Assembly (NCBI RefSeq): GCF_000745855.1
Contig: NZ_JQKD01000005.1
Span: forward strand, 62,001-126,000
DNA: 64,000 bases
Direction: 5' to 3'
DNA from: Xenophilus azovorans DSM 13620
GTDB lineage: Bacteria; Pseudomonadota; Gammaproteobacteria; Burkholderiales; Burkholderiaceae_C
The notes beneath the pieces are model-generated. The model saw nothing but the letters and a program-made list of their open reading frames with translations, was not told where the DNA came from and searched no databases. Positions 4,127 to 64,000 of the stretch are shown here, in pieces. The translations under genes and the position numbers were made by a program. Within the stretch, counting starts at the first letter, position 1; each line of letters starts with the position of its first letter.

Positions 4127-4669
4127 ATGACCACGACAAACACCAAGGAACGCGCGCCCGGCCAGGGCGGCAACTGGCCCCAGACGCTGGTGGGGCTGGG
4201 CGTCCTCGCCACCGGCCTGGGGCTGGGCTGGGGCGCCATGGGCATTTCCTCCGATGCCGGCTACAGCGGCATCGGCCCGAACTTCTTCCCGTGGATGTGC
4301 GCGGTCGTGCTCACGGTGTGCGGCGCCTGGATCCTCTGGGAGGCGCGTACCGGCGGCTTCCGCGAGATGGACGAGGAGGGCGCGCCGGCCCATCCGCCGT
4401 ACTGGACGGGCTTCGTCTGGGTGTCTGCCGGGCTGCTGCTGAACGCATCGCTGATCACCGCGATCGGCTTCATCCTGAGCTGCGCGCTGTGCTACCTGCT
4501 GGCGGTGCAGGGGCTGCGGCGGGCCGGCGGGCAGCCCATCGCCAACGCGCCGCGCACCTGGATCGTCGACGTCCTGGTGGGCCTCATCATCTCGGCGCCG
4601 GTGTACTGGACCTTCACCAAGTTCCTGGCGATCAGCCTGCCGGGGCTGACGAACAGCGGCTGGCTCTGA
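4127..4669 (+). CDS. tctB: tripartite tricarboxylate transporter small membrane subunit TctB
   Basis: 180 residues from the ATG at 4127, preceded by GGAGAAAGG. Four hydrophobic segments are visible: LVGLGVLATGLGLGWGAM, FFPWMCAVVLTVCGAWIL, TGFVWVSAGLLLNASLIT running on into FILSCALCYLLAV, and IVDVLVGLIISAPVYWTF. The motif YSGIGPNFFPW near residue 50 is characteristic of the TctB family. It is the poorly conserved small subunit that partners TctA in the inner membrane. The stop is followed after 10 bases by the tctA start, so the two are co-translated. Confidence 0.88.
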   Translation: MTTTNTKERAPGQGGNWPQTLVGLGVLATGLGLGWGAMGISSDAGYSGIGPNFFPWMCAVVLTVCGAWILWEARTGGFREMDEEGAPAHPPYWTGFVWVSAGLLLNASLITAIGFILSCALCYLLAVQGLRRAGGQPIANAPRTWIVDVLVGLIISAPVYWTFTKFLAISLPGLTNSGWL

Positions 4670-4679
4670 GGGAGGCACC

Positions 4680-6194: not shown

Positions 6195-6336
6195 GCGGAT
6201 GCGGTGGGCCATCGGCGGCTAATGAGAATGTTGCAAGGAGAAACACTCTCCGCACACGAGAGGGTGTGCCCCTAGACTCGACTGTCTTTGTTCCTGCATG
6301 GCCGCGCTGCCGCGCGCGCCGAACACCCACCCATCG

Positions 6337-6621
6337 ATGACCCTCTGGACCTTGCTGGCCTGGATCGCGGCTGCGCTGATCGTCGTGATCGCCGCCGTGC
6401 TCATCTGGCGCCGCGTCGGGCGCCGCACCAAGGAAACCCCCACCGTCGCGCTGGTGCGCAGGCGGCGTGAACTGCAGTCGCAGCTGCAGAGCCTGGCCGG
6501 CGACGAGGGTGGAGGCATCCTCAAGCAGGAGGCCCAGCGCATGCGCGCGAGCCCGACCGAACTGCAGGTGCTGGAGGCCGCCGTCGCGCGCGCGCAGCGG
6601 CTCGCCTCTGACCGGCGCTGA
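6337..6621 (+). CDS. small single-pass membrane protein of unknown function
   Basis: 94 residues from the ATG at 6337; an in-frame ATG at 6298 would add 13 residues. Neither start has a good ribosome-binding site. One membrane segment (WTLLAWIAAALIVVIAAVLIW, residues 4-24) is followed at once by RRVGRRTK and then a soluble, probably helical tail rich in Gln, Glu and Arg (RRRRELQSQLQSLAG). The charge pattern predicts the tail in the cytoplasm. I do not recognise the family. It stands alone between tctA and a convergent acetyltransferase gene. Confidence 0.55.
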   Translation: MTLWTLLAWIAAALIVVIAAVLIWRRVGRRTKETPTVALVRRRRELQSQLQSLAGDEGGGILKQEAQRMRASPTELQVLEAAVARAQRLASDRR

Positions 6622-6639
6622 GGCCGGCCGGTCTTCCTC

Positions 6640-7149
6640 TCAGCTTTCGCTGGAGGCGTCGCCGCCTGCAGCCAGCGCCGCCAGCCGCTCGCCGGTCACG
6701 CGGCAGATGCGCCAGTCCGGCATGACGGTGGCGCCCATTCCCTCGTAGAGCGCGATGGCGCGCCGGTTCCAGTCGAGCACGCTCCATTCCAGCCGGCCGC
6801 AATCGCGCTCGGCAGCCAGTGCGGCCACGCGCGCCAGCAGGGCCCGGCCGAGGCCACGGCTGCGCCATGCGGGGCGCACGTAGAGGTCTTCAAGCCACAG
6901 GCCGGGCCGGGCCAGGAAGGTGGAGAAGGTCGGGAAGAAGAGGGCGTAGCCGACGGCCTCGCCGTCCGCCATGGCCACCATCGCCTCGGCCGCGGGCCGT
7001 TCGCCGAAGAGCTGCGCGGCCAGGCGCTCGGGCGTGGCTTCCATCAGGTGCTCGAGCCGCTCGAACTCGGCCAGCTCGCGGATCATGCCGACGATGGCCG
7101 GCACGTCCCGGGGCGTGGCGGGGCGCAGGGTGAAGGCAGGGGAAGTCAT
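6640..7149 (-). CDS. GNAT-family N-acetyltransferase, diamine acetyltransferase-like
   Basis: 169 residues from the ATG at 7149. Acetyl-CoA motif A is DLYVRPAWRSRGLGRALLAR, and motif B reads EWSVLDWNRRAIALYEGMGA. The LEDLYVRP and VLDWN..AI..Y..MGA pattern is typical of the spermidine/spermine (SSAT-like) branch of GNAT enzymes, which acetylate small amines. The actual acceptor is unknown. It lies 19 bases after the UPF0126 gene on the same strand, so the two probably share a transcript. Confidence 0.82.
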   Translation of the reverse strand: MTSPAFTLRPATPRDVPAIVGMIRELAEFERLEHLMEATPERLAAQLFGERPAAEAMVAMADGEAVGYALFFPTFSTFLARPGLWLEDLYVRPAWRSRGLGRALLARVAALAAERDCGRLEWSVLDWNRRAIALYEGMGATVMPDWRICRVTGERLAALAAGGDASSES

Positions 7150-45482: not shown

Positions 45483-45558
45483 GCGGGAATAGCTCAGTTG
45501 GTAGAGCGCAACCTTGCCAAGGTTGAGGTCGGGAGTTCGAGACTCCTTTCCCGCTCCA
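45483..45558 (+). tRNA. tRNA-Gly (GCC anticodon), island insertion site
   Basis: 76 bases with encoded CCA. The acceptor stem is GCGGGAA/TTCCCGC, the anticodon stem is CAACC/GGTTG around TTGCCAA with GCC at 45516-45518, and the T-loop is GTTCGAGAC. A tyrosine recombinase gene begins 231 bases beyond its 3' end, the classic arrangement of an integrated island. Confidence 0.96.
45531..45558 (+). other. putative att core at the tRNA-Gly 3' end
   Basis: P4-type integrases usually recombine within the T-arm and 3' end of a tRNA gene, and the island restores the tRNA sequence. The segment GGGAGTTCGAGACTCCTTTC followed by CCGCTCCA is the likely identity block. A second copy should mark the far end of the island; none was seen before the window ends. 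Confidence 0.5.
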
Positions 45559-45568
45559 ATTTGCGATC

Positions 45569-45592
45569 TATGGAGTTCTACAGAATTCCATA
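45569..45592. repeat. imperfect palindrome next to the att site
   Basis: TATGGAGTTCTACAGAATTC followed by CATA; 20 of 24 positions are symmetric. It starts 11 bases after the tRNA end and may be an integrase arm or core-flanking site. Confidence 0.5.
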
Positions 45593-45605
45593 AGTCATTG
45601 AAAAC

Positions 45606-45627
45606 AGGGGCTTTTCGCCCCTTTTTT
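45606..45627 (+). terminator. Rho-independent terminator after tRNA-Gly
   Basis: AGGGGC-TTTTC-GCCCCT followed by TTTTT. It would end transcripts coming from lon or the tRNA before they enter the integrase region. Confidence 0.8.
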
Positions 45628-45629
45628 CA

Positions 45630-45690
45630 TCCAGTGAGGTCCACTGGAATCCGTCTTCAGCCACAGGTTTTTAGTACATTTTCTAGTACA
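45630..45690. repeat. inverted and direct repeats upstream of the integrase
   Basis: TCCAGTG-AGGTC-CACTGGA (45630-45648) is a perfect inverted repeat. TAGTACA occurs twice, at 45672-45678 and 45684-45690, with starts 12 bases apart, about one helical turn. Such clustered sites are expected for integrase arm binding or an excisionase/repressor. Confidence 0.5.
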
Positions 45691-45789
45691 GAAATCCGGT
45701 GGCTTGGCAGATCGATTTCTTCCAAGTGCCAGCCTTACCGGGATCGTACAAAGCTCCTCAACTCAAACGAGACCGAGGATGTATGTGCG

Positions 45790-47589
45790 ATGGCTCTCAC
45801 CGATACCGTGGTCCGTCAAGCCAAGGCTGACCGCAAAGACTATGCACTCCATGACAACGATGGCTTGAGCCTCTACGTGACTGCACGTGGTGGAAAGAGT
45901 TGGCACTTCCGGTTTTCTTGGGCGGGCAAGCAGCCCCGCATCTCGCTGGGTACCTACCCTGAGATTAGCCTGCGGGAGGCGCGCGAGCGACGCGACGAGT
46001 GTCGTGCTCTCGTGGCCAAGGACATTGATCCACGCATGCACCGTCGCACCCAGCGGGCTGCGGCGATCTGTGCTGCAGAGAACACCTTCGAGGTGATGTT
46101 TCAGTCGTGGCGTGCTTTCAAGGCGATGAGCCTGAAGACTGGACGCCAAAGCACGCTCTCCCAGATCGATCGCATCTTCGGCAAGGATGTCCTGCCCACA
46201 CTGCGCAACCTGTCGATCTTCGAGATCAAGCGCCAGGATCTGCTGGAGATCCTGCGCAAAATCGAGCGGCGCAGGGCTCTTACCACGGCCGAGAAGTGCA
46301 GAACCTGGTTCAATCAGCTTTTCCGCTTCGCGATGGTCGAGGTGAACTTGCCGGAGAACCCGGCCGCCGACCTGGACATCGTGGCGATGCCGCAGCCTCC
46401 GGTCAAACACAACCCGTTCCTGCGCATGCACGAGTTGCCGGCTTTCCTGCGCAAGCTGCGTGCCTACCGCGGCGAAACCAAGACGCAACTGGGGGTGTGG
46501 CTGTTATTGCTCACGGGAGTACGAACCGGTGAACTGAGGCTGGCGATGCGAGACCAGTTTGACCTTGAGCGAGGCCTCTGGATCATCCCTGCCGAGGTTG
46601 TGAAGCAGCTTCAGCAGCCGCTGCGCACGGAAGACAGGGACATCCCGCCGTACATCGTTCCCCTGCCGCGTCAGGCCATCGAAATCTTCCAGCACCTGTT
46701 GGACGACATGGCGCCGGCACAGCGTTATCTGCTTGCACATCGCAGTGACCTCAAGAAGCGCATCAGCGAGAACACCCTCAACGCTGCTCTGAAGCGCATG
46801 GGGTACAAGGACCAACTGACTGGGCACGGCATCCGGGGCACCATCTCCACGGCGCTGAACGAACTCGGCTACAACGGGAAATGGGTGGATGCCCAACTCT
46901 CGCATACCGATCCCAATCAAATCAGTTCGGCCTACAACCACGCGGAGTACGTTGAGCAGCGCCGGGGGATGATGCAGGACTGGGCCGATCGGCTGGATGC
47001 TTGGGCGAACCAGCCGCCGGATGCGGACCTCATGAACGCTTCCAGCACCCAGGTCGCCGGCTCGCACACGATTTCGCCAGCCAACCCTGCACAGGACCAT
47101 GCCGCAGTTGCCGACAACACGATGGAGAATGCCAATCCGGATGGGCCACTGCCGCCGCCACCGAGCCCGATGACCATCATCGCGCGTCGCGACCAGCGCC
47201 CGCAACCGGTGATGACCGATTTCCAGCGTGCCCATGCCGAGATGCTGGCGACCTTCGAAGCGCCGCAAAACCTCTCAGTCCCTGTGTTCGCCAAGCTGGC
47301 TGGAAAATCCCGCGACCAGATCAATCGGGAAATCAAGGCCAAGCGGCTATTGTCCATCAGCCTGGGCAACCGTGGTCAGCGCATCCCGGAGTGGCAACTC
47401 AATCCGCTGTGCCAGCGCTTCGTGCACAAGGTGATGGAGCGGGCACAGCGGATTGATTCATGGGTGCTCTATCGGACCTTGTCCGAGCCGCGGGACGATC
47501 TGGAGGGACTTGCGCCTGTGGTCGCCGTTGCTGCGGGCAAGCTCGCCGCCGCGGAGGAAATGGTATTCGCGCAGTTGGGTCTGGATTGA
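45790..47589 (+). CDS. P4-type tyrosine recombinase (integrase) with a long C-terminal extension
   Basis: 599 residues from the ATG at 45790. The N-terminal DUF4102-like part reads LTDTVVRQAKADRKDYALHD and LYVTARGGKSWHFRFSW. The catalytic residues are Arg 245 (LTGVRTGEL), His 346 and Arg 349 (GHGIRG), His 372 (LSHTDPN) and Tyr 382 (SSAYNHAEY). P4-type integrases usually end near residue 400-420, after MMQDWADRLDAW. Here about 190 more residues follow: a Pro/Asn-rich linker, then a compact domain with a helix-turn-helix look (VPVFAKLAGKSRDQINREIK) and a C-terminal helical part (AAEEMVFAQLGLD). The extension may bind DNA or a partner; it is not part of the recombinase fold. Confidence 0.9.
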   Translation: MALTDTVVRQAKADRKDYALHDNDGLSLYVTARGGKSWHFRFSWAGKQPRISLGTYPEISLREARERRDECRALVAKDIDPRMHRRTQRAAAICAAENTFEVMFQSWRAFKAMSLKTGRQSTLSQIDRIFGKDVLPTLRNLSIFEIKRQDLLEILRKIERRRALTTAEKCRTWFNQLFRFAMVEVNLPENPAADLDIVAMPQPPVKHNPFLRMHELPAFLRKLRAYRGETKTQLGVWLLLLTGVRTGELRLAMRDQFDLERGLWIIPAEVVKQLQQPLRTEDRDIPPYIVPLPRQAIEIFQHLLDDMAPAQRYLLAHRSDLKKRISENTLNAALKRMGYKDQLTGHGIRGTISTALNELGYNGKWVDAQLSHTDPNQISSAYNHAEYVEQRRGMMQDWADRLDAWANQPPDADLMNASSTQVAGSHTISPANPAQDHAAVADNTMENANPDGPLPPPPSPMTIIARRDQRPQPVMTDFQRAHAEMLATFEAPQNLSVPVFAKLAGKSRDQINREIKAKRLLSISLGNRGQRIPEWQLNPLCQRFVHKVMERAQRIDSWVLYRTLSEPRDDLEGLAPVVAVAAGKLAAAEEMVFAQLGLD

Positions 47590-48008: not shown

Positions 48009-48635
48009 TCAGGCCTTGGCACCGTAGTAACTGCCGATGACGCTGCCGTAGAACGGGAGCACTTCGGCCATGAAGGGACCGAACTCGGCTGCTGAAGGGT
48101 TGCGCCAATCACCCTGCAACTCGGCGCCGCAGGCGACAACGCTTGTCGGCTTGACACCAGCCTGGACCATGCGCTGGACAGCGATGTCTTCGACGAGCTT
48201 GCTCCAGGTTCCGCTGGCGTCCAGCACCGCATAGGTTTCGTAGCCGGCCCGCACTGCCGAAAGCGCAACGAACGACACGCATACTTCGGTCGAGATGCCG
48301 GCGACCAGCAGCTTCTTTCGGCCCGTGGCTTCCACGGCCGTGACGAACTCGCTATTGTCCCACGCGTTGATTTCGCCGGGCCGGGACACGATCTTCGCGT
48401 TCGGCAGCAAACTGGTGATCTCGCTCAGGATAGGACCGTTGGGGCCCTTCTCGGCGCTCGTGGTGATGATGGTCGGCAGCTTGAAGATCTTGCCTAGCTT
48501 GGCCAAGCCAACGATGTTGGCCCGGAAGTCGTGTGGCGTCTGGGTGGTGACGCCATTGAACAGACCCGTCTGGTGGTCGATCAACAGCAGTGCGGTATTG
48601 TCCGGCGTCAGACGGTCCATGGTAGAGGCGGTCAT
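48009..48635 (-). CDS. isochorismatase-family cysteine hydrolase (YcaC-like)
   Basis: 208 residues; CAGGAGACC precedes the ATG. The active-site Asp is at 20 (LLLIDHQTGLF) and the nucleophile Cys at 119 (VAGISTEVCVSF), with the cis-peptide region GISTEV typical of the fold. NAWDNSEFVTAVEATGRKKL resembles the YcaC group of amide or imide hydrolases. The substrate is unknown. It is the first island gene past the integrase and is transcribed toward it with its own terminator. Confidence 0.88.
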   Translation of the reverse strand: MTASTMDRLTPDNTALLLIDHQTGLFNGVTTQTPHDFRANIVGLAKLGKIFKLPTIITTSAEKGPNGPILSEITSLLPNAKIVSRPGEINAWDNSEFVTAVEATGRKKLLVAGISTEVCVSFVALSAVRAGYETYAVLDASGTWSKLVEDIAVQRMVQAGVKPTSVVACGAELQGDWRNPSAAEFGPFMAEVLPFYGSVIGSYYGAKA

Positions 48636-50576: not shown

Positions 50577-53552
50577 ATGCTCAAGCGAACTGCGCTCAAA
50601 ACCATCCTGCTCGCGCTGCCCCTTGCCATCCGTTTGGCGGCGAAGAAAAGCCAACCTGTTCGTGCCCGACTCGCCGGGGCCAATCGCGTGATTCAAGTGC
50701 GCCTCAGGGACGGCAGCCTAGCCCACCACTATATCTTCAAGGCCGGACGGGTGCGTGGTCATGCCGGCCTGCATCCCAGCCCCGACGGCGAGATGGTGTT
50801 CAAGTCGGTCGACATGGCGTTGGCCATGCTGAACCCGTCGCCCGACTACGCCATCGTCATCGATGCGCTCAAGAACTTCAAGGTCACCGCTGGCGGAAAA
50901 GATGTTGCGCTGGTGTGGTTCGGTCGGCTGATGAGCGCCGTGGGAGCTGCCGGCTGGAAAGCCGGTGTAGAGCTGGGTGACGGTGTGGTGCGATACACCA
51001 ACCTGACCAATGGCGGGCCGATCTACGTCGATGTCAAGGACGGGAAAATTCTGCGTACGGTACCCATCGATCTCAAAAGCGAGGACGCGCCGAGTTGGAC
51101 GATATCGGCGCGCGGGCGCCAGTTCAGCCCGGTCCGCAAGGCGCTCGTGAGTCCGCACGCGCTGAGCCTGAAGTCCATGGTCTATTCGGACAAGCGTCTG
51201 CTCTACCCGATGAAGCGCGTGGACTTCGATCCGACCGGTGAACGCAATGTGCAGAACCGGGGCAAGTCGGGTTACGTGCGGATTGGCTGGGATGAGGCGC
51301 TCGACATCGTCGCAGGCGAAATCCAGCGCATGAAGAAGGAACACGGCCTCGGTTCGATCGCGGTGTTCCATCCCGCGCATCACCAGTGGGGGAACCTGAA
51401 CTATTGGCTTTCGGCGCTGTTCCGCTTCAGCAACTTGATCGGGGCCACGAAGATGGGGTTCAGTCCGATCAGCTGGGAGGGTTGGTACTGGGGCGCAACT
51501 CACCACTTCGGAAACAACTTGCGCCTGGGTACTCCCGGCTTCTACGGCACGCTCGAGGACTGCCTCCAGCACGCGGACATGATCGTGTTCTGGTCCAGCG
51601 ATCCCGAAAGCACCAACGGCCTGTATGCCGGCTTCGAGGCGACACAACGGCGGCTCTGGGCGAAGGAACTCGGGATCGAGTTCGTGCACATCGATCCGCA
51701 CTTCAACAAGACGGCTCAGCTCCTCGGGGGCAAATGGATGCCCATCCGACCAGGCTCGGACCCGGCGCTGGCGCAGGCGATCATGTACCAGTGGATCGTC
51801 GATGACACCTACGACAAGGAATACGTCGAAAAGCGCACGACCGGGTTCGGCGAGTGGAAAGACTACTTGCTCGGCAAGAGCGACGGCGTGCCAAAGACCG
51901 CGGAATGGCAGGAGAAAGAGACTGGTATTCCGGCAAAGGATGTCCGCAGTCTCGCTCGTTGCTGGGGCCGCCGCAAGGTCTACCTCGGCGCTGGTGGGCT
52001 TGGCGCCGGCTTCGGTGGCGCATGCCGTTCGGCGACTGGGGACCAGTGGGCACGCTGCATGGTCCAGCTTCTTGCAATGCAGGGCTGGGGCAAGGAAGGC
52101 GTGAACTTCGGCAACCTGCAGTTTGGAACGCCGATGGACTTGAACTTTTATTTCCCGGGGTATGCCGATGGCGGCATCTCCGGCGACGTCATCAACACGG
52201 CTGCCGCCTTCCACAACTTCAACCGCATGCCGCATGTCGTGACGATGAATCCCAACAAGCAGATGATCCCGCGACAGCTCTTCCCCGAGGCGATCATCGA
52301 GGGGAAGTGTACGGGTCATCTCTGGGACGGCATGTCCATGGAGGGCCAGTTTCCCGCCTACCAGTATCCGCTCGAGGGCCACTCGCGGGTGCACATGCTC
52401 TACCGCTACGGCGGGTCCTCGCTCGGCACGGTGGCCAACTCGGCCCGGCTGATCGAAGCCTATCGGCATCCGTCGCTGGAATTCGTCGTCAACCAGTCGA
52501 TCTGGATGGAGAACGAGGTCCAGTTCGCCGACGTCATCTTGCCCGCCTGCACATCGCTGGAACGCTGGGACATCGCGGAGTCCGCCAATTGTGCGGGCTA
52601 CATCGTGCACAACCAGAACCAGCTCAATCACCGCATGGTCGTCATGCAGCACCAGTGCATCCAGCCCCTGGGTGAATCGAAGTCCGACTACGAGATATTC
52701 ACCGACGTACTTGCGCGACTCGGACTGGGCGCGTTGTTCTCGGAAGGTGGGTGTGACGACCTCACGTGGTGCAAGCGCATCTTCGATTCCTCCGATTTGC
52801 CGTCCCGCATCAGCTGGAAGGAGTTCCTCAAGAAGGGGTACTACGTGGTGCCGCCCGATCCGCCCAGCATGCCGACGCCAGTCGATATGCGGTGGTACGC
52901 AGAGGGGCGCCCCAAGGACGTACCCGAACCCAACCCGATGCCGGCACAGTACACGGAGGAATTCGGACGCGGACTGCCTACACAATCCGGCAAGTTTGAA
53001 TTCGTGCCGAGTACGCTGAGGCGGATCGAGTCGTCGGACCCAGGTCGTCCGGCCGTCAACCGGTACATCCCTCCCTGGGAAGGGCATGGCACCGACGGGC
53101 TTGCCCAACGGTATCCACTTCAATTGCTGACCGCTCACCCGGCGTACAGCTTCCATACGTACGGCGACGGCAAGAACAGCACGATCAATGACATCGAGGA
53201 TCATCGCATCACGGTGGACGGACGGGCTTACTGGGTGCTGCGCGTGAGTCCGAAGGACGCAGAGTCACGTGGCCTTCGTCCGCATGACTTGGTGCGTGTC
53301 TTTAATGACCGCGGGGCGGTCATCTGTGCTGTAGACGTGATGCCTTTGATGTTCGGAGGCGTGGTCAAGGCGTTCGAATCATGCGCGGTGTTTGAAATGG
53401 TAGAGACACCGAATGGGCCGGTCGACCTCGGCGGTTGCCTGAATCTGTTGACTCCGGGCCGTTCGATCAGCGCCACCGCTCAGGGCATCGCGCCCAACTC
53501 ATGCCTGGTCGAGATCGAGAAGTGGGATCGCGTTGTTCTGGAGGCGGCATGA
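50577..53552 (+). CDS. molybdopterin oxidoreductase, transhydroxylase-like, with an SCP2-like N-terminal domain
   Basis: 991 residues. Residues 35-125 (VIQVRLRDGSLAHHYIFKAG ... GGKDVALVWFGRLM) have the strand-helix layout and key spacing of SCP2-type sterol/lipid carrier domains. The rest matches the large subunit of pyrogallol-phloroglucinol transhydroxylase, a bis-MGD enzyme of the DMSO-reductase family. RLLYPMKRVDFDP, HPAHHQWGNLNYW, SWEGWYWGATHHFGNN, IVFWSSDPESTNGLYAGFEA and HIDPHFNKTA are visible. There is no N-terminal CxxC iron-sulfur motif, as in that enzyme, and no twin-arginine signal, so it should be cytoplasmic. Ser 299 (SWEGW) fits the Mo ligand and His 268 the active-site His, but the residue before the Ser is Ile where the Pelobacter enzyme has Asp (from memory). 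A different reaction is likely. Its stop overlaps the Fe-S gene start. Confidence 0.85.
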   Translation: MLKRTALKTILLALPLAIRLAAKKSQPVRARLAGANRVIQVRLRDGSLAHHYIFKAGRVRGHAGLHPSPDGEMVFKSVDMALAMLNPSPDYAIVIDALKNFKVTAGGKDVALVWFGRLMSAVGAAGWKAGVELGDGVVRYTNLTNGGPIYVDVKDGKILRTVPIDLKSEDAPSWTISARGRQFSPVRKALVSPHALSLKSMVYSDKRLLYPMKRVDFDPTGERNVQNRGKSGYVRIGWDEALDIVAGEIQRMKKEHGLGSIAVFHPAHHQWGNLNYWLSALFRFSNLIGATKMGFSPISWEGWYWGATHHFGNNLRLGTPGFYGTLEDCLQHADMIVFWSSDPESTNGLYAGFEATQRRLWAKELGIEFVHIDPHFNKTAQLLGGKWMPIRPGSDPALAQAIMYQWIVDDTYDKEYVEKRTTGFGEWKDYLLGKSDGVPKTAEWQEKETGIPAKDVRSLARCWGRRKVYLGAGGLGAGFGGACRSATGDQWARCMVQLLAMQGWGKEGVNFGNLQFGTPMDLNFYFPGYADGGISGDVINTAAAFHNFNRMPHVVTMNPNKQMIPRQLFPEAIIEGKCTGHLWDGMSMEGQFPAYQYPLEGHSRVHMLYRYGGSSLGTVANSARLIEAYRHPSLEFVVNQSIWMENEVQFADVILPACTSLERWDIAESANCAGYIVHNQNQLNHRMVVMQHQCIQPLGESKSDYEIFTDVLARLGLGALFSEGGCDDLTWCKRIFDSSDLPSRISWKEFLKKGYYVVPPDPPSMPTPVDMRWYAEGRPKDVPEPNPMPAQYTEEFGRGLPTQSGKFEFVPSTLRRIESSDPGRPAVNRYIPPWEGHGTDGLAQRYPLQLLTAHPAYSFHTYGDGKNSTINDIEDHRITVDGRAYWVLRVSPKDAESRGLRPHDLVRVFNDRGAVICAVDVMPLMFGGVVKAFESCAVFEMVETPNGPVDLGGCLNLLTPGRSISATAQGIAPNSCLVEIEKWDRVVLEAA

Positions 53553-54055
53553 GCAAGTGGAATCTGATCATTGACGTCGACCTGTGCTGCAACTGCGGCA
53601 ACTGCTCGCTCGCGATCAAGGACGAGTATGTCGGCAACACGTTTCCCGGGTACGCCGCGAGTCAGCCCTTGCACGGCTCTGAGTGGTTCCGGGTCGATCG
53701 TCATGTCCGGGGCGAGGGCACGCACGTGGATGTCACCTACATCCCGAAGACATGCAACCACTGCGATGACGCGCCGTGCTTGAAGAAAGGCGAGGGCGCA
53801 GTCAAGAAGCGGGACGATGGGATCGTGATCATCGACGAGATCGCGGCCAAAGGGCGCAAGGACCTGGTACCTGTCGGCAACACTGTCCGACTGGACCAAC
53901 CCGAACTACAAGTTCCACCAGCGGATCATCGATCGGACCAAGGTGCCGCTGACCCGGTTCACGCCGGACGCGATGGCGGGCGAAGGAGCGCGCTGACGTG
54001 TTCGCGCTCCTCGACTCCATCGGCGCGGCGCGCAGGCCGGGCTCGGTTCTCCTGA
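53549..54055 (+). pseudogene. truncated iron-sulfur subunit of the molybdoenzyme
   Basis: The frame starts at an ATG overlapping the large-subunit stop (ATGA). The first 106 or so residues are authentic: MSKWNLIIDVDLCCNCGNCS with one Cys cluster and TYIPKTCNHCDDAPCLKKGE with the start of a second, as in the small subunit of transhydroxylase/DmsB-type proteins. After GRKDLV (about 53868) the frame runs into unrelated sequence for 62 residues to a stop at 54055 inside the next gene. The second half of the ferredoxin-like domain, with the remaining Cys ligands, is gone. The subunit can hold at most one or two clusters and is probably non-functional. Confidence 0.8.
53871..53996 (+). pseudogene. 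C-terminal remnant of another gene, fused at the deletion point
   Basis: In a different frame from the Fe-S gene, 53871-53996 reads LSATLSDWTNPNYKFHQRII, then DRTKVPLTRFTPDAMAGEGA, R and a stop. It has normal coding character and ends two bases before the next gene's start. In related clusters the gene preceding a YCF48-type protein and an MMPL transporter is often a DUF1329 protein with a TP-containing C-terminus. That identity is a guess from gene order. Confidence 0.55.
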
Positions 54056-55104
54056 TGTTGGTCATGTTGCTGACCTGCTGGCCCTCCGCACAGGCCGCCC
54101 TGGAGGACGTGCTGGCTCGTCCCTCGATGACGAGCGCGAAGGCCGTGCAGGCGGCCATGCTGTCGGTGGGGCGCGCAGGAAGCCGCCTGGTGGCTGTTGG
54201 TGAGCGCGGCATCGTGCTGGTCTCGGACTCGAACGGCCAACAATGGAAACAAGTCGCGACCCCGGTCAGCGTCACGCTGACCGCCGTGAACTTTCCCGAT
54301 GCCCGACACGGCTACGCTGTTGGCCATGGAGGCGTGGTGCTTGCTTCCGCGGATGGCGGACTGAGCTGGAGGCGCATCCTTGATGGGCGTCAGGCGGCCG
54401 GCCTGATGCTGGTGGACGCCGAATCGCGCACGGACCTCGATGACCCCGAGCGACTCGCACTCGTGGGTGAGGCCAAGAGACTCGTCGAAGATGGTCCCGA
54501 CAAGCCGTTTCTCGACGTGCGCTTCAGCGATCAGAAGAACGGCCTGATCGTGGGCGCGTTCGGCATGGCATTGACCACGGAAGACGGTGGTGTCCATTGG
54601 AAGCCGATCGGTCACCGCATCCCGAACCCGAAGCGCAAGCATTTGTACCGGATCGTGGTCCACAAGGATCTGCTCTGGCTGGCTGGAGAGCAAGGCGCGC
54701 TGTTCTTCAGTCGGGACGGTGGCCGCTCCTTTGAGGAAATGGCTCTTCCCTATGCCGGAACGCTGTTCGGCCTGGTGGCTGCTTCCGAGAGCGAATGGTT
54801 GGTGTACGGGCTGCGCGGGAACGTGTTCCGTACGTCCGATGCTGGCTCGACGTGGACGAAACTCGCCAATGCCGAGGCCACGAGCGTCACCCACGGTCAA
54901 CTGCTGTCGGACGGACGCGTTGTCCTGATCGATCAAGCCGGTCGCGTCCTGGTCGAGAGCGTGTCTGGTAGCGGACTCACTGCACTGGGCAAGGACGATC
55001 TTCCATCACTGAACGCGGTCGTTCAGGCCCCGGACGGCTCACTTGTGATGGCTACGTTGCGAGGCATGGTGCGCCGATCAACTGCTTCGTCGGGTAAACC
55101 ATGA
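53998..55104 (+). CDS. YCF48/BNR-type beta-propeller protein
   Basis: 368 residues from a GTG at 53998, with GAAGGAG upstream. A hydrophobic signal (SVLLMLVMLLTCWPSAQAAL) directs export. At least five propeller blades are visible by the repeated pattern GxRGIVLVSDSNGQQWKQV, GHGGVVLASADGGLSWRRI, GAFGMALTTEDGGVHWKPIG, GEQGALFFSRDGGRSFEEM and GLRGNVFRTSDAGSTWTKL. Proteins of this kind, related to the photosystem assembly factor Ycf48, are encoded next to MMPL transporters in many hydrocarbon and steroid degraders. A role as a periplasmic partner of that transporter is inferred. The next start overlaps its stop (ATGA). Confidence 0.85.
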   Translation: MFALLDSIGAARRPGSVLLMLVMLLTCWPSAQAALEDVLARPSMTSAKAVQAAMLSVGRAGSRLVAVGERGIVLVSDSNGQQWKQVATPVSVTLTAVNFPDARHGYAVGHGGVVLASADGGLSWRRILDGRQAAGLMLVDAESRTDLDDPERLALVGEAKRLVEDGPDKPFLDVRFSDQKNGLIVGAFGMALTTEDGGVHWKPIGHRIPNPKRKHLYRIVVHKDLLWLAGEQGALFFSRDGGRSFEEMALPYAGTLFGLVAASESEWLVYGLRGNVFRTSDAGSTWTKLANAEATSVTHGQLLSDGRVVLIDQAGRVLVESVSGSGLTALGKDDLPSLNAVVQAPDGSLVMATLRGMVRRSTASSGKP

Positions 55105-57524
55105 TCTCCATGAAGACAAGCGACGAAGTTTTTCTCGAGAACACCATGGCGTTTGACCGGCGGTCAGGGTCACTGCTCGAGCGCGCGCTCTTCAACCATC
55201 GGCTGATCGTGCTGCTTCTGTGCTTGATTGCCACCGTGCTGCTCGGCTGGCAGTCAACACGGCTGAAGGTCAATGCGGGCTTCGAGAAAATGATCCCGCT
55301 GCAGCACGAATTCGTCGTGAACTACATGGCGAACAAGAGCGAACTCGCGGGCTTGGGCAATGCGCTGCGGATCGTTGTCTCCACGGAGCAGGGAAATATC
55401 TTCACGGCTGAGTACATGGAGGTGCTGCGCAAGATCAACGATGAGGTCTTCCTGTTGCCGGGCGTGGAGCGCTCGCACATGAAGTCCCTGTGGACGCCGG
55501 CTGTGAGGTGGGTGGCAGTCACGGAAGACGGGCTCGAAGGTGGGCCAGTCATTCCAGACAACTTCGATGGTTCGCCGGCGAGCCTTGAGGAACTCCGCAC
55601 CAACGTCATGCGTTCGGGGCAACTCGGCCAACTGGTCGCCTTTGACTATAAGTCCACCACCATCTACGTGCCGCTGTTCGATCGGGATCCAGAGGGACGC
55701 CAACTGGACTACCACGCGTTTTCGCAGCAGCTGGAGGCGGTTCGAGCCAAGTACGAGAAGGGGGGGGTCAAGGTCCATATCATTGGCTTCGCCAAGGTCG
55801 TGGGCGAACTGATCGATGGGTTGCGCGAAGTCCTGATGTTCTTTGGCCTCGCGATCGTGATCTGTACGATCGTGTTGTACGCGCACACACGATGCTGGCG
55901 CAGCACCACGCTGGTCGTCGCCTGCTCGTTGTTGGCTGTGGTCTGGCTCCTGGGCCTGCTGCCAGCCCTCGGCTATGAGCTCGACCCATATTCAGTCCTG
56001 GTGCCATTCCTCGTTTTCGCCATTGGCATGAGCCATGGCGCTCAGAAGATGAACGGGATCATGCAGGACGTTGGTCGAGGCATGGACAAAGTCGTCGCGG
56101 CCAGATACACGTTCCGGCGCCTTTTCCTGGCTGGCACTACAGCATTGCTGGCAGATGCCGTTGGCTTCGGCGTCCTCATGGTGATTCAGATTCAGGTTAT
56201 CCAGGATTTGGCGGTGGCCGCCAGCCTGGGTGTCGGGATCTTGATCTTCACGAACCTGGTGCTGTTGCCGATTCTGCTTTCCTATGTCGGTGTCAGCCCG
56301 GAGGCCGCAGCGCGATCCATGGAAGCGAATCAAGCGGACGTTGCCGAAGCGTCACATCGCAAGCACCCGATGTGGGCTTTCCTTGACCTCTTCACGCAGC
56401 GTCGGTGGGCTACCTGGGCGTTGGCCGTGGCTGTGATCCTCGCGGTGCTGGGATACGGAGTGGGCCGTGGGTTGAAGATCGGTGATCTGGAGCCTGGCGC
56501 GCCGGAACTGCGGCCGAGTTCCAGATACAACCAGGACAACAGCTACATCACGGCCCACTACGCGGCCAGCAGCGACGCCTACGTCGTGATGGTCAGGACC
56601 CAGCCCTTCCAGTGCAATACCTACGAATCGCTCGCAGCGATCGACGCGCTCGAGTGGGAACTCCAACAATTGCCACAGGTCGAGTCGACGCGTTCGTTCT
56701 CCGGTTTCGCCAAGCAGGCCTCGGTCGGCATGAACGAGGGGTCGTTTCATTGGTTCGACATTCCTCGCAACCAGGGCCAACTGAACTCGGTAGCCAACCG
56801 CGGTGCGCCACGAGAGCTGATCAACCAGAACTGCGACCTCGTCACGCTGTATGCCTACCTCACAGACCACAAGGCGGAGTCGCTGGAGGGTGTTGTGAAG
56901 GTGGTCAGCGATTTCGCGACGCGGCACAACAGCGACAAGATCAAGTTCCTCTCGGCGGCCGGAAGTGCAGGCATCGAGGCCGCGACGAACATCGTTGTCA
57001 AAGAAGCCGACCGCAAGATCCTGTGGCTGGTCTACGCTGCGGTGACGATCCTGGCCTTCGTCGTGTTTCGGTCTGTGCGTGCCGTTGCCTGCGCAATCAT
57101 CCCGCTCGTTGTTACGACACTGCTGGCGGAAGCATTGATGGTGCTTCTGGGCATTGGCGTAAAGGTGGCGACGTTGCCTGTGATCGCCTTGGGTGTGGGC
57201 ATCGGCGTTGACTACGCCCTCTACGTGCTGACCGTGACGCTGGCGGAGTTGCGCCGCGGGAAGACCCTTTCGCAGGCGTACTACTCGGCGCTGCTGTTCA
57301 CCGGCAAGGTCGTCGTGCTGACAGGCCTCACCTTGTCGGGCGCAGTCTGCATTTGGGCAGCGTCGCCGATCAAGTTCCAGGCCGACATGGGCCTATTGCT
57401 GGCGTTCATGTTCCTCTGGAACATGCTCGGCGCGCTGATCCTGCTCCCGGCTTTGGCCCATTTCCTACTGGAGCCAGCGGCCCGCACCAAGCGGACTCCC
57501 CAGACGGTCGTGCCTTCAGCCTAG
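55101..57524 (+). CDS. MMPL/RND-superfamily transporter
   Basis: 807 residues with the two-fold layout of MMPL proteins. One N-terminal helix (LIVLLLCLIATVLLGWQS), a periplasmic domain, five helices (VLMFFGLAIVICTIVLYAHT ... NLVLLPILLSYVG), then the same again (WATWALAVAVILAVLGYGVG ... LLLAFMFLWNMLGALILLPA). SSD-like helices GVGIGVDYALYVLTVTL and FAIGMSHGAQKMNGI carry the charged relay residues. It moves hydrophobic molecules between membranes or leaflets; import or export of the pathway substrate is inferred from context. It is translationally coupled to the beta-propeller gene. Confidence 0.88.
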   Translation: MISMKTSDEVFLENTMAFDRRSGSLLERALFNHRLIVLLLCLIATVLLGWQSTRLKVNAGFEKMIPLQHEFVVNYMANKSELAGLGNALRIVVSTEQGNIFTAEYMEVLRKINDEVFLLPGVERSHMKSLWTPAVRWVAVTEDGLEGGPVIPDNFDGSPASLEELRTNVMRSGQLGQLVAFDYKSTTIYVPLFDRDPEGRQLDYHAFSQQLEAVRAKYEKGGVKVHIIGFAKVVGELIDGLREVLMFFGLAIVICTIVLYAHTRCWRSTTLVVACSLLAVVWLLGLLPALGYELDPYSVLVPFLVFAIGMSHGAQKMNGIMQDVGRGMDKVVAARYTFRRLFLAGTTALLADAVGFGVLMVIQIQVIQDLAVAASLGVGILIFTNLVLLPILLSYVGVSPEAAARSMEANQADVAEASHRKHPMWAFLDLFTQRRWATWALAVAVILAVLGYGVGRGLKIGDLEPGAPELRPSSRYNQDNSYITAHYAASSDAYVVMVRTQPFQCNTYESLAAIDALEWELQQLPQVESTRSFSGFAKQASVGMNEGSFHWFDIPRNQGQLNSVANRGAPRELINQNCDLVTLYAYLTDHKAESLEGVVKVVSDFATRHNSDKIKFLSAAGSAGIEAATNIVVKEADRKILWLVYAAVTILAFVVFRSVRAVACAIIPLVVTTLLAEALMVLLGIGVKVATLPVIALGVGIGVDYALYVLTVTLAELRRGKTLSQAYYSALLFTGKVVVLTGLTLSGAVCIWAASPIKFQADMGLLLAFMFLWNMLGALILLPALAHFLLEPAARTKRTPQTVVPSA

Positions 57525-57611: not shown

Positions 57612-57968
57612 ATGTACCAGGATCGAGTCCAACGCTTGTTCGACGCCATTGACACGATGTCGGCCGGACGTTTTGCTGAGTCTCTCGCACCGAACGTGCA
57701 CTTCCAGTTCGGCAACGCCTCCGAGGTTCGAGGTCGAGATGCCGTGGAGGCGACCGTGGCGGGGTTCTTCTCTTCGATCGACGGCCTACGCCACCACCTG
57801 CGCGGCTACTGGGAGCAGGCGAGCACCGCCATCGTCAAGCTCGAAGTGGAATACACACGCAAGGACGGACGCAAGCTGACCTTGCCCTGCACCAACATCT
57901 TCGAGTTCGATGGTGATTTGATCAGCGACTATCGCATCTACATGGACATCGGCCCGGTGTTCGCCTGA
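57612..57968 (+). CDS. NTF2-like/SnoaL-type small protein
   Basis: 118 residues; AGGAGAAG precedes the ATG. The cone-shaped NTF2 fold is suggested by RVQRLFDAIDTMSAGRFAES, VHFQFGNASEVRGRDAVEAT and the final FEFDGDLISDYRIYMDI. Ketosteroid isomerase and SnoaL cyclases belong here, but catalytic residues cannot be assigned. It could isomerise or bind an intermediate of the island pathway. The SDR gene follows after 47 bases. Confidence 0.75.
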   Translation: MYQDRVQRLFDAIDTMSAGRFAESLAPNVHFQFGNASEVRGRDAVEATVAGFFSSIDGLRHHLRGYWEQASTAIVKLEVEYTRKDGRKLTLPCTNIFEFDGDLISDYRIYMDIGPVFA

Positions 57969-58015: not shown

Positions 58016-58765
58016 ATGAGCAGGTTCAAGGACAAGGTGGCGCTGGTCACCGGAGCGGGCAACGGCATGGGCCGCTCTCACGCACTGCGGCTGGCCCGCG
58101 AAGGGGCCACGGTCGTTGTGGCCGACGTCAACGCCGCGGATGGAGCAGCGGTTTGCGGTGAGATCACGGCAGCGGGGGGCCGGGCCGTTTTTCAACTGCT
58201 GGACGTGACCCAAGAAGAGCAGTGGAAGCAAGCTTGCTCACGGGCGCAGAAGGACTTCGGTTACATCGATGTCCTCGTCAACAATGCCGGCATCATCATC
58301 TACAAGACGCTCTTGGACACCAGCACGGCCGAGTGGGAGAAGGTGATGGCCGTCAACAGCACGGGCACCTATCTGGGCTGCCGGGAGGTCGGTGCGCTGA
58401 TGAAGGGGCACGGCGGCGCCATCGTCAATGTGTCTTCGGTCCTCGGCAGTGTGGCGGCACCGGGAGTGGCGGCCTACCAGGCGAGCAAGGGTGCGGTCAA
58501 CATGATCACGAAGTCCGCGGCCGCGGAACTTGTGTCATTCAACATCAGGGTGAACTCCGTGCACCCTGGTCTTGTGGCCACGCCCATGATCAAAGACTTC
58601 GTTGGCGATCCCCAAGCCGTGGAGATGCTGCTGGGCCCGACTCTCATCCGCCGTCTCGCGCGACCCGAGGAGATCACCAACGTCGTCGCGTTCCTGGCTA
58701 GCGACGAAGCGTCGTACGTCACTGGTGCGGCGTACATGGTGGACGGCGGTTTCAGTACCGTCTGA
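58016..58765 (+). CDS. short-chain dehydrogenase/reductase
   Basis: 249 residues. The cofactor motif is VTGAGNGMG (residues 11-19), and the acidic residue after the second strand (VVVADVNAAD) points to NAD rather than NADP. NNAG is at 89-92. The catalytic Ser is about 140-141, with Tyr 154 and Lys 158 (AAYQASKGAV). The ending YMVDGGFSTV is typical of hydroxysteroid/3-oxoacyl-type dehydrogenases. It probably oxidises an alcohol of the pathway substrate. Confidence 0.9.
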   Translation: MSRFKDKVALVTGAGNGMGRSHALRLAREGATVVVADVNAADGAAVCGEITAAGGRAVFQLLDVTQEEQWKQACSRAQKDFGYIDVLVNNAGIIIYKTLLDTSTAEWEKVMAVNSTGTYLGCREVGALMKGHGGAIVNVSSVLGSVAAPGVAAYQASKGAVNMITKSAAAELVSFNIRVNSVHPGLVATPMIKDFVGDPQAVEMLLGPTLIRRLARPEEITNVVAFLASDEASYVTGAAYMVDGGFSTV

Positions 58766-58792: not shown

Positions 58793-59674
58793 ATGCCACA
58801 TCAGGGACGTGATACCGGGACCACCACTGTCATCCGCTCGCGCAATGTCGATCAGCTTGTCGAGGGAGTGTCCACGACGGATGGCGCGGGTGTAAAGCTC
58901 ACGCGGGTCCTGAGTGAGGCGCTGCACCAGCGGCTGGACCCATTTCTCATGCTCGATGCCTTCAGAAGCGAGAATCCGAGCGACTACATCGCGGGATTTC
59001 CAGAGCATCCGCATCGTGGTTTCGAGACTGTGACGTACATGCTGGCGGGACGAATGCGTCACCGCGACAGCCTAGGAAATGAGGGCCTATTGCTCGGAGG
59101 TGACATACAGTGGCTCACCGCGGGGCGAGGCGTCATCCACTCGGAGATGCCCGAACAGGAAAATGGGTTGCTCGAGGGCTTTCAGCTCTGGATCAACCTT
59201 CCGGCGCGCGACAAGCTGTGCGAACCAGCATACAGGGACATTGCACATCAGGATCTGCCGCGGATCGCACGTCCTGGCGTGACCGTCGTCGTGATTGCCG
59301 GCAGCTTCGGCGAGGTTGGCGGCCTCGTGCACCGCGAGGCGACAAGTCCAACATATTTGGATGTGCATCTGCAGGCTGGCGCACGAGTTGCCGTGCCGCT
59401 GCCCTCCGAACACAACGCATTCCTCTACCTCTATCGCGGGTCGCTGAATGTGGCTGGCCGTTCCATTCAGCAAGGCCACATGGCCATCCTGGCCAACGAC
59501 CTGAGGGCCGATGGCGTCGTGCTCGAGGCGCCAACCGAGGCGCGCGCGCTGCTGATCGCCGGCCGCCCGTTGGGTGAGCCCATCATGCAGTACGGCCCCA
59601 TCGTGATGAACACGCAGGGCGAATTGCTTCAGGCGGTCGCAGATTTCCAGAGCGGCAGATTCACCTCGCCCTGA
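58793..59674 (+). CDS. pirin family protein
   Basis: 293 residues of double cupin fold. The metal ligands are present: His 72 and His 74 (FPEHPHRGFETVTYM), His 116 and Glu 118 (GRGVIHSEMPEQ). Bacterial pirins such as YhaK/YhhW relatives include quercetin 2,3-dioxygenases, so oxidation of a polyphenol is possible; many others have no known activity. Its presence with a transhydroxylase-like enzyme is suggestive but not proof. It is followed by a 7-bp hairpin. Confidence 0.88.
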   Translation: MPHQGRDTGTTTVIRSRNVDQLVEGVSTTDGAGVKLTRVLSEALHQRLDPFLMLDAFRSENPSDYIAGFPEHPHRGFETVTYMLAGRMRHRDSLGNEGLLLGGDIQWLTAGRGVIHSEMPEQENGLLEGFQLWINLPARDKLCEPAYRDIAHQDLPRIARPGVTVVVIAGSFGEVGGLVHREATSPTYLDVHLQAGARVAVPLPSEHNAFLYLYRGSLNVAGRSIQQGHMAILANDLRADGVVLEAPTEARALLIAGRPLGEPIMQYGPIVMNTQGELLQAVADFQSGRFTSP

Positions 59675-60106: not shown

Positions 60107-60859
60107 ATGGCACGACTAAACAACAAGGTGGCGCTCATCACGGGTGCCGCGCATGGCATGGGGCGCGCTCACGCGGAACTGTTCGCGAAGGAGGGTTCTA
60201 AGGTCGTTGTCACGGACCGTGATGAGCGCGCTGGCGCTGCCGTGGCGGCGCAGATTGTGGAGTCTGGCGGCAATGCCATCTTCTCGCCGCTCGATGTGTC
60301 GAGCGCTCAGGACTGGGAAGGCGTCACAGCCCTCGCGGAAGCGACTTTCGGACCGATCACTGTTCTGGTCAACAACGCCGGAACTTATGTTTACGGCGAG
60401 ATCGAAGCGGCCACCGAATCGCAGTGGGACATTGTCAACTCGGTCAATGCTCGTGGAACGTTCCTTGGCTGTCGAGCGGTAGTACCACAAATGAAGCGAG
60501 CCGGCGGCGGCGCGATTGTGAATGTCTCATCGAACTTCGCCATTGTCGGTCGCCCAGGCTTCTCGATCTATTGCGCTTCGAAGGGGGCGGTGCGAATGAT
60601 GAGCAAGGCGCTCGCGGCAGAATTGGCGCCATACGGCATCCGCGTGAACTCGCTTCATCCCGGGCTTGTCGCAACGGACATGACCCGTGACCTTATCGCC
60701 ACGCCTGAATCCCTTGACACATTGCTCGGTTCCGCGCTGATCAGGCGCGCAGCTGCACCGCTTGAGCTTGCCTATGCGGCCCTGTTCTTGGCGTCTGACG
60801 AATCGTCGTACATGACAGGCGCGGAGTTGGTGGTTGACGGCGGCTACACCAGCGTCTGA
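60107..60859 (+). CDS. short-chain dehydrogenase/reductase, second copy
   Basis: 250 residues from the ATG at 60107, after CAGGGAGG; a frame from 60080 adds nine unlikely residues. The cofactor motif is ITGAAHGMG, with the acidic VVVTDRDE indicating NAD. The catalytic Ser is about 142, with Tyr 155 and Lys 159 (SIYCASKGAV). It is clearly related to the SDR at 58016 (same length, VNSxHPGLVAT, ASDExSYxTGA), so a duplication followed by divergence is likely. It is convergent with a decayed LysR gene. Confidence 0.9.
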   Translation: MARLNNKVALITGAAHGMGRAHAELFAKEGSKVVVTDRDERAGAAVAAQIVESGGNAIFSPLDVSSAQDWEGVTALAEATFGPITVLVNNAGTYVYGEIEAATESQWDIVNSVNARGTFLGCRAVVPQMKRAGGGAIVNVSSNFAIVGRPGFSIYCASKGAVRMMSKALAAELAPYGIRVNSLHPGLVATDMTRDLIATPESLDTLLGSALIRRAAAPLELAYAALFLASDESSYMTGAELVVDGGYTSV

Positions 60860-62358: not shown

Positions 62359-62455
62359 AAGCCTATCGGCAGAATTTCTCGAAAAAAAACAGCGGGAATC
62401 CTACATTCGCTTCCAGTGCGTGGTGCGACGCACCCAGCGATTTCTTGGAGACAAA

Positions 62456-64000
62456 ATGCTCGACGGATTCATTCCCTGGCCCAAAGACGCGGCCGAAAAA
62501 TACATCAAGGCCGGCCTGTGGGAGGAACGAACCATCACCGACATGGTGTATGCCGTGGCGGCCCGTCATCCGGACAAGATTGCCGTCATTGACGGGCAGA
62601 GCCAGTACACCTATGGGCAGTTGCGCCAGAGGGTGGATCGACTGGCTTGTCGCCTGCTGCGCGAAGGCATGGGTCCGCGAGACCGCATCGTCATGCAGCT
62701 GCCCAATTCGGCGGAATTCATCTTTGCCTACCTGGCCATCACCCGAATCGGTGCCATTCCCGTCATGGCCTTGCGGGCGCACCGCGAAACCGAGATTCTC
62801 CATTTCGTGCGTTCGGCGGCAGCAGCGGGATACATGATCCCCGCCGAGTACAGCCGTTTTGATTACCGAAGGATGGCCGAGGCCGTGGCGCGGCAGTGCC
62901 CTTCGCTGAGAAGAACCTTTGTCTTGGGTCAGCCTGCTGCCGGACAAGTCTCGTTGACTGACATGTTCACGGAGCCGCTCGACGAGGCTGTGGTGGCTGC
63001 TGAGTTGGCCAAGGTCAGTGTAGACCCCAGCGAAGTGGCGACGATGCTGCTGTCTGGGGGCACCACTTCCATGTCCAAGTTGATTCCGCGCACGCACAAC
63101 GATTTCGTGCTGAATGCCCGCTTGTGCGGCAAGGCGGGCGGGTTCGACGAAAACACCGTGTTCATGGCGGTGCTGCCGTTGGGCCACAACTACAACCTGG
63201 CTTCCCCCGGCATGCTGGCTGTTTTCTACTTCGGCGGAACGGTGCTGGTGGGGGCGGGCACCGATGCCGAAGCGGTGTTTCCGCAGATCGCCAAGCACCG
63301 TGTGAACGTGATCGCCGCCGCAGTTCCCATGATTGCGAACTGGCTGCAGTCCACTGCAGCGGTTCAACACGATCTGTCGTCGCTGAAAGTCATCCAGAAC
63401 GGTGGGGCGCGTCTGGCTCCGGAACTGCGTCGCCGCATCATGGAGCAATTGCACTGCATCCCGCAGGAGGTGTACGGCACTGCCGAGGGGTTGATCAACA
63501 TGACCCGTCTGGACGACCCGGAGGACCTGTTGCTCGAAAGCTCTGGCGCGCCGGTCTGTGACGAAGATGAGATCAAGGTCGTGGATGACGACGGCAACGA
63601 GGTGCCGGATGGCGAGGCCGGTGAACTGCTCTGCCGGGGTCCTTACACCATTCAGGGCTATTACAACGCTCCCGAAAAGAACAAGGAAGCCTTCACCGAG
63701 GACGGTTTTTACCGCATGGGCGACGTGGTGCGCAAGCGAGGCCGCTACGTGTTCGCCGAAGGGCGAAAGAAGGATCTCATCAACCGTGGGGGTGAAAAGA
63801 TCAGCTGTGAAGAAGTTGAAGACCTGATCTTCAAACACCCTGCGGTACATCAAGTTGCGCTGGTGGCCATGCCAGACCCCGTGTTTGGCGAAAAGGCGTG
63901 TGCCTTTGTGGTGACCAAACCCGGACAAACGCTGACTTTTGAAGAACTGATCGGGTTCTTGAAAAAGCAGAACATCGCCAGCTTCAAGTTGCCTGAGCGA
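62456..64000 (+). CDS. aryl/acyl-AMP ligase, 2,3-dihydroxybenzoate/salicylate-AMP ligase-like (3' end missing)
   Basis: 515 codons are present and the frame is still open at the window end; the family is about 540-560 residues long. TTGGAGA precedes the ATG. Adenylation motifs are LLSGGTTSMSKLIPRTHNDF (P-loop), EVYGTAEGLINMTR, GELLCRGPYTIQGYYNAPEK, FYRMGDVVRKRGRYVFAEGR and DLINRGGEKISCEEVED. The C-terminal Lys (IASFKLPER) is just reached. The LPLGHNYNLASPGMLAVFYF pattern resembles DhbE/EntE-like aryl-acid adenylases used for CoA activation of salicylate or dihydroxybenzoate. The divergent NahR-like regulator supports an aromatic acid substrate. Confidence 0.88.
   Translation, partial: MLDGFIPWPKDAAEKYIKAGLWEERTITDMVYAVAARHPDKIAVIDGQSQYTYGQLRQRVDRLACRLLREGMGPRDRIVMQLPNSAEFIFAYLAITRIGAIPVMALRAHRETEILHFVRSAAAAGYMIPAEYSRFDYRRMAEAVARQCPSLRRTFVLGQPAAGQVSLTDMFTEPLDEAVVAAELAKVSVDPSEVATMLLSGGTTSMSKLIPRTHNDFVLNARLCGKAGGFDENTVFMAVLPLGHNYNLASPGMLAVFYFGGTVLVGAGTDAEAVFPQIAKHRVNVIAAAVPMIANWLQSTAAVQHDLSSLKVIQNGGARLAPELRRRIMEQLHCIPQEVYGTAEGLINMTRLDDPEDLLLESSGAPVCDEDEIKVVDDDGNEVPDGEAGELLCRGPYTIQGYYNAPEKNKEAFTEDGFYRMGDVVRKRGRYVFAEGRKKDLINRGGEKISCEEVEDLIFKHPAVHQVALVAMPDPVFGEKACAFVVTKPGQTLTFEELIGFLKKQNIASFKLPER

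Follow-up and report, generated by a model that had tools for sequence, protein, structure and literature searches.

What kind of enzyme results when a putative lipid-carrier domain precedes a core resembling the large subunit of pyrogallol-phloroglucinol transhydroxylase (PGTH), and on which compounds would such an enzyme act? This question is raised by one gene in the window, i.e. the whole stretch of 64,000 nucleotides of Xenophilus azovorans DSM 13620 DNA analysed in this study. We compared its product with known structures, with relatives in other genomes and with the genes that surround them.

The alpha gene and its molybdoenzyme core

The gene encodes the alpha subunit of a putative two-subunit enzyme and has the following features:
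50577..53552, +: alpha subunit, SCP2-fold domain and PGTH-like molybdoenzyme core, 991 aa (ORF, Pfam, PDB alignment and model)
50577..50960, +: N-terminal helices (residues 1-34) and modelled SCP2 fold (about 35-128), residues 1-128 (model and Foldseek)
51015..51179, +: PF21423, AhtL-like domain 1, residues 147-201 (Pfam)
51195..52712, +: PF00384, molybdopterin oxidoreductase, residues 207-712 (Pfam)
51378..51473, +: active-site stretch with His268, Ile298 and Ser299 (counted along the 4v4c alignment)
53220..53504, +: PF01568, dinucleotide-binding domain, residues 882-976 (Pfam)

The open reading frame starts with ATG and contains 991 codons and no internal stops. The PGTH large subunit (4v4c) matches residues 137-985 along their length (E 1.3e-284), which bears out the preliminary description, in which the approximately 850 C-terminal residues had been likened to this subunit. 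It is also the top PDB match of the full-length alpha model (49% identity, TM 0.92 by target; model pLDDT 80.7 and pTM 0.84, with block means of 81-93 for residues 1-130). PF21423 scores 82.7 bits against a cut-off of 27, and the presence of this AhtL-like domain 1 together with the molybdopterin domains places alpha in the PGTH/RhL (AhtL-like) lineage. Relative to PGTH, the protein has 136 extra residues at its N-terminus, and Pfam detected no family before residue 147 at E<=1. No twin-arginine motif was spotted by eye.

Fold of the N-terminal domain

The N-terminal domain was modelled by AlphaFold2 from 44 homologue rows (A1 and A2), which were hand-picked for spread out of 81 sequences. In the resulting model (mean pLDDT 84.0, pTM 0.74), residues 1-126 form, in order, two helices, four strands, two helices, one strand and a long helix. 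A Foldseek search of the PDB with this model yielded 34 matches at E<=0.001, all of which are SCP2-type or SCP2-bearing chains. Judged by title, 21 of them are UbiJ-SCP2, AF1534 or SCP2/SCP2-like chains, and the other 13 are alkylsulfatases or YjcS, chains of ~620-640 residues aligned over ~95 columns. The top match is UbiJ-SCP2 (6h6o, E 7.4e-6), and TM values by query length are modest (0.36-0.53). YjcS presumably also bears an SCP2-like domain. For the alkylsulfatases SdsA1, Pisa1 and SdsAP, a C-terminal SCP2-like domain has been described (PMC5426288).

The assignment of residues 35-125 to an SCP2 fold had been made from the letters of the sequence, and the fold search that had been set as its decisive check gave SCP2 matches in all 34 cases. 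The region is also not an ordinary molybdoenzyme N-domain, because the alignment with 4v4c begins only at residue 137. Sequence comparison lends weak support: in residues 1-145 of the window protein, Pfam detected no family at E<=1, and PF02036 was matched in 10 of the 44 homologue N-domains (best E 1.3e-4), the window protein not being among them. A profile built from the 44 N-domains retrieved no SCP2 chain from the PDB at E<=10, and we dropped sequence-only proof for the window protein in view of these PF02036 and profile searches. Fold comparison of the model, on which the claim rests, nevertheless provides strong grounds for accepting the SCP2 fold, and the domain may bind lipid.

Conservation and distribution of the fusion

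A scan of genome contigs yielded 589 relatives, of which the best 80 were kept. The N-domain is complete (residues 30-135 filled) in 79 of these best 80 of 589, the short one being L039. Because one of the six search peptides was drawn from the N-domain, this set is biased toward fused members; we therefore turned to PF21423, a domain of the core, and looked for it in three overlapping draws of 200, 398 and 399 genomes. Eight genomes, including that of the window, were above the cut-off (two fragments below it, L088 and L089, were left out of the count), and the N-domain is present in all eight. Thus, the domain pairing noticed in the window protein was rightly recognized, and it is not peculiar to the window.

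The architecture of this fusion family is conserved, and its distribution is patchy. In the phylum draw, the window genome alone among 398 was above the PF21423 cut-off, and this draw thus provided no outgroup lacking SCP2. None of the 14 other genomes of the window's genus contains a close match; the matches found there are other molybdoenzymes with 24-34% identity. Within the PGTH/RhL lineage, the fusion is a domain variant for which we found no description: none of the open papers searched, which take in only a minority of subscription journals, joins SCP2 with a transhydroxylase.

Several family members are located on plasmids (L084, L085, L090, L091 and L092) of Salipiger, Burkholderia, Paraburkholderia, Ensifer and Cupriavidus, and the gene set may therefore travel on plasmids. 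A plasmid nucleotide search with 14.6 kb of the window region returned eight records, the best of which covers 14%.

Active-site residues and the Ile/Val clade

His268, Ser299 and Tyr529 of the window protein are equivalent to His144, Ser175 and Tyr404 of PGTH and are all kept, whereas the position of PGTH Asp174 is occupied by Ile298. We take all four PGTH residues to have active-site roles, as in the PGTH structure. In an alignment of 81 sequences (the window protein and the best 80 of 589 relatives), Ser299 is invariant in all 81, and the His268 column shows little variation, although the residues on either side of it shift. The Asp174 column of the same 81 sequences contains Asp in 60, Ile in 20 and Val in one. 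PGTH and RhL coordinate Mo via Ser (PMC10100899).

In a tree of 78 rows (L025, L039 and L040 were left out), the 20 Ile/Val rows are all on one side of a single branch (SH-aLRT 99), so that one change suffices to explain them. Since PGTH has Asp, loss is the likelier direction. Judged by its sequence, the window protein thus belongs to a clade whose active site has changed, more likely by loss of Asp than by its gain elsewhere.

A broken beta subunit gene beside alpha

The region directly downstream of alpha contains two partial genes:
53549..53866, +: beta subunit, first 106 codons only (4Fe-4S, PF13247 partial; comparison with relatives)
53868..53996, +: probable tail of a DUF1329 gene, in a frame that differs from that of beta (12-residue match and position before YCF48)

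From 53549, the window beta matches its relatives for about 106 of 280 codons; past this point, the frame encodes unrelated residues up to a stop at 54055, and six of the nine Cys conserved in relatives are left. A whole Fe-S beta subunit beside alpha, which the window lacks, is found in 73 of the best 80 of 589 relatives (within 300 bases of the alpha end in 71 of those 73 loci) and in all seven further loci obtained by the core-only PF21423 search. The frame at 53868-53996 ends in FTPDAMAGEGAR. In L072 and L074, FTPDAMAGEGVR closes the gene directly before YCF48 (a 12-residue match, E 0.009), and the L072 protein is a DUF1329 protein by Pfam. The naming of this tail depends on these twelve residues and on its position, because the 42-residue window tail by itself gives no DUF1329 match.

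The simplest reading of the junction is a deletion that fused the beta and DUF1329 genes. An error of assembly, with a whole alpha-beta enzyme in the strain, would be compatible with an alpha frame that is open over its full length and with the draft state of the genome (132 contigs). However, the junction lies inside a contig of 306,954 bases, and neither a further piece of beta (next best match E 0.003, 26%) nor a DUF1329 gene was found in this genome, which is rated 99.62% complete; we therefore regard such an error as unlikely. Because beta is truncated, the window copy is probably impaired or dead and may be inactive. An alpha-only enzyme for redox-neutral hydroxyl transfer could be imagined as a matter of speculation. 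Although its domain call stands, the preliminary description had passed over both this broken beta beside alpha and the Asp-to-Ile change in the window's clade.

Gene neighbourhood in the window

The genes that flank alpha and beta are as follows:
48009..48635, -: isochorismatase-family (YcaC-like) hydrolase, 62% to L084
48989..49936, -: LysR-type regulator, divergent from alpha
53998..55104, +: YCF48-like beta-propeller (PF14870; Pfam)
55101..57524, +: MMPL/RND-type transporter (Pfam and further comparison)
57612..57968, +: SnoaL/NTF2-like protein, 45% to Salipiger L084 (Pfam and L084 comparison)
58016..58765, +: short-chain dehydrogenase 1
58793..59674, +: pirin family protein
60107..60859, +: short-chain dehydrogenase 2, 61% to L084
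61327..62280, -: second LysR-type regulator
62420..64000, +: AMP-binding aryl/acyl ligase, continuing beyond the window and heading a salicylate/gentisate-like gene set

The closest layout found is that of the Ile-type locus on a Salipiger abyssi plasmid (L084), which shares with the window the alpha subunit (65%), the isochorismatase-family hydrolase (62%), the short-chain dehydrogenase (61%) and the SnoaL-like protein (45%), and which also contains an annotated salicylyl-CoA ligase. For YCF48 and MMPL, the window genes are similar to those of Asp-type loci. In the downstream flank of the window (L093, 2147-7458), the ligase gene at 62420 is followed in a row by genes for a flavoprotein resembling the first half of salicylyl-CoA 5-hydroxylase, for a cupin that resembles gentisate dioxygenase and for a VOC protein that resembles HpaD; all are below the NCBIfam cut-offs for those names and are likenesses only. 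An acyl-CoA-synthetase-like gene of this flank was named by eye.

Upstream of the cluster, a tRNA-Gly(gcc) gene adjoins a tyrosine integrase gene (window 45483-47589; the integrase ORF as called overlaps the tRNA), a pair that suggests an integrated island. A tRNA-bounded island was not adopted: the 26-base end of the tRNA-Gly gene occurs only once in the genome (allowing <=1 mismatch), and therefore no right end was found.

Loci of relatives

Genes of the relatives were called by a heuristic in flanks of unequal length, and the neighbour counts given here are approximate; the names DUF1329, MarR, MMPL and YCF48 were tested with Pfam. Among the best 80 of 589 relatives, the 60 Asp-type loci contain genes for FAH hydrolases (43 loci), VOC dioxygenases (34), AMP-binding ligases (32), OmpW (17), DUF1329 (11), YCF48 (8), MMPL (8) and DUF1302 (7). 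His169, His220 and Glu285 are kept in all 44 clustered VOC proteins. This complete His-His-Glu set fits the triad by which type I extradiol dioxygenases bind their metal. The 20 Ile/Val-type relatives in the same best 80 of 589 contain instead MarR regulators (13), NMT1-like proteins (11) and FAH hydrolases (5), and the VOC, ligase and OmpW genes of the Asp-type clusters were found in none of these 20. Seven of the 20 have an FAD protein of the ketosteroid-dehydrogenase kind, with NCBIfam matches below cut-offs, and the likeness of the NMT1-type cluster to dihydroxyphthalate decarboxylase was judged by eye. LigB-type dioxygenase genes are present in L044 and L111, and among the neighbours of Ile-type members are a 3-hydroxybenzoate 6-monooxygenase gene (L004) and a GST-family gene (L007). 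The shared theme of these loci is aromatic catabolism, with no single fixed operon.

In L110, alpha-beta is immediately followed (4584-6707) by another molybdopterin oxidoreductase that has an Fe4S4 domain of its own; a comparable match is present in L111. This second molybdoenzyme of L110 might point to a resorcinol operon of the Azoarcus type; no pyruvate-dehydrogenase-like genes were seen by eye in the gene lists, from which a few proteins were scanned.

Proposed function and alternative explanations

The reading that we prefer, and to which we give about an even chance, is that the family enzyme is a cytoplasmic two-subunit molybdenum hydroxylase whose SCP2 domain feeds a lipophilic phenol to the core. 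The SCP2-like domains of alkylsulfatases have a role in substrate capture. Similarly, the SCP2 domain at the front of the protein would capture a lipophilic phenol and hand it to the PGTH-like core, where molybdenum, coordinated by Ser299 and a pair of pterin cofactors, would add or move a ring hydroxyl without O2. The Fe-S beta subunit would carry electrons, and ring-cleaving dioxygenases and hydrolases would then open the product. We infer the cofactor, the cytoplasmic location, the lipid binding, the direction of the reaction and the substrate from an observed basis of two folds, a conserved fusion, the Ser, His and Tyr kept in the core, a beta gene adjoining alpha and a linkage to aromatic catabolism in many relatives. 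The SCP2 domain of UbiJ binds hydrophobic ubiquinone intermediates, and UbiT has been proposed to do likewise in the O2-independent pathway (PMC6747719).

Lipophilic-ring chemistry, as had been proposed from the window alone, is fairly drawn from the ring-cleavage genes and from transport-type genes: an OmpW, FadL-like or DUF1302/DUF1329/YCF48/MMPL gene is located within ~10 kb in 35 of the best 80 of 589 loci. However, all 35 belong to the Asp-type branch, and the window's branch has none among these 80. Other observations also count against the preferred reading. The window's branch lacks VOC and OmpW genes and has FAH in 5 of 20 loci (best 80 of 589), and of the seven loci from the core search, L115 alone has VOC and FAH homologues, together with the DUF1302-DUF1329-YCF48-MMPL set. 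Conservation is lower in the N-domain than in the core (modal-residue frequency 0.61 versus 0.78), and the window's own beta is broken.

The SCP2-fold domain might instead be a structural, membrane-docking or complex-docking module of an enzyme that, like PGTH and resorcinol hydroxylase, has small polar phenols as its substrates. We consider this possible, though on the improbable side. The characterised relatives use pyrogallol and resorcinol (PMC10100899); amidohydrolase-family genes are present in L085, L110, L111 and L114, gentisate-type genes lie near some Ile-type members (L004, L007 and the window flank L093), and the N-terminal helix of the window protein is mildly amphipathic, with a moment of up to 0.49. 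On the other hand, the fold belongs to a lipid-binding family, the transport-type genes mentioned above speak against a mere docking role, and 37 of 129 N-domain positions are at least 90% hydrophobic, although any folded core would have many such positions. A role as an O2-independent hydroxylase in lipid quinone synthesis, with the SCP2 domain in the place of UbiT, appears highly improbable: the neighbouring genes are catabolic and the gene is patchily distributed (0 of 14 congeners, 1 of 398 in the phylum draw), even though the top Foldseek match is UbiJ-SCP2, UbiT and UbiU-UbiV exemplify hydroxylation without O2 that is assisted by an SCP2 protein, and ubiT is reported to be fused to ubiU in Zymomonas (PMC6747719).

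If the SCP2 domain does capture a lipophilic phenol, bacteria of soil and water would possess a conserved branch of these enzymes that, by means of a built-in lipid carrier, applies the ring chemistry to hydrophobic phenols, and an SCP2 domain would be placed on a redox metalloenzyme. A broader proposal, which we regard as doubtful, is that widespread O2-independent Mo hydroxylases with a lipid-carrier domain act on alkyl- or prenyl-like phenols and that the Ile clade of the window carries out a ring reaction unlike that of PGTH.

Comparison with known systems

Few bis-MGD molybdoenzymes that modify aromatic rings are known (PMC7028382, PMC10100899). PGTH of Pelobacter acidigallici (4v4c) resembles the window protein over the whole core (49% identity), including the positions of Ser175, His144 and Tyr404, but it has 875 residues without an SCP2 domain, it has Asp174 where the window protein has Ile298, and the window beta is truncated. 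Resorcinol hydroxylase RhLS of Azoarcus anaerobius has been placed with PGTH in a branch of the DMSO reductase superfamily that hydroxylates its substrates and has a Ser ligand (PMC10100899). RhLS was compared by description only, and the status of the RhL N-domain bears directly on the novelty of the pairing.

UbiJ shares the fold of the N-domain, and both UbiJ and UbiT are used beside hydroxylases of lipid phenols (PMC6747719). Unlike the fusion described here, however, they are mostly separate proteins with no molybdoenzyme attached, and their setting is biosynthetic rather than catabolic. Type III alkylsulfatases are zinc enzymes and differ from the window protein in being hydrolases of the metallo-beta-lactamase fold with a C-terminal SCP2 domain. 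Nevertheless, SdsA1, Pisa1 and SdsAP provide a case of an enzyme for greasy substrates with an SCP2-like domain (PMC5426288). The catechol dehydroxylases of Eggerthella are likewise bis-MGD molybdoenzymes that act on aromatic rings, but they form a separate clade closer to acetylene hydratase (PMC7028382).
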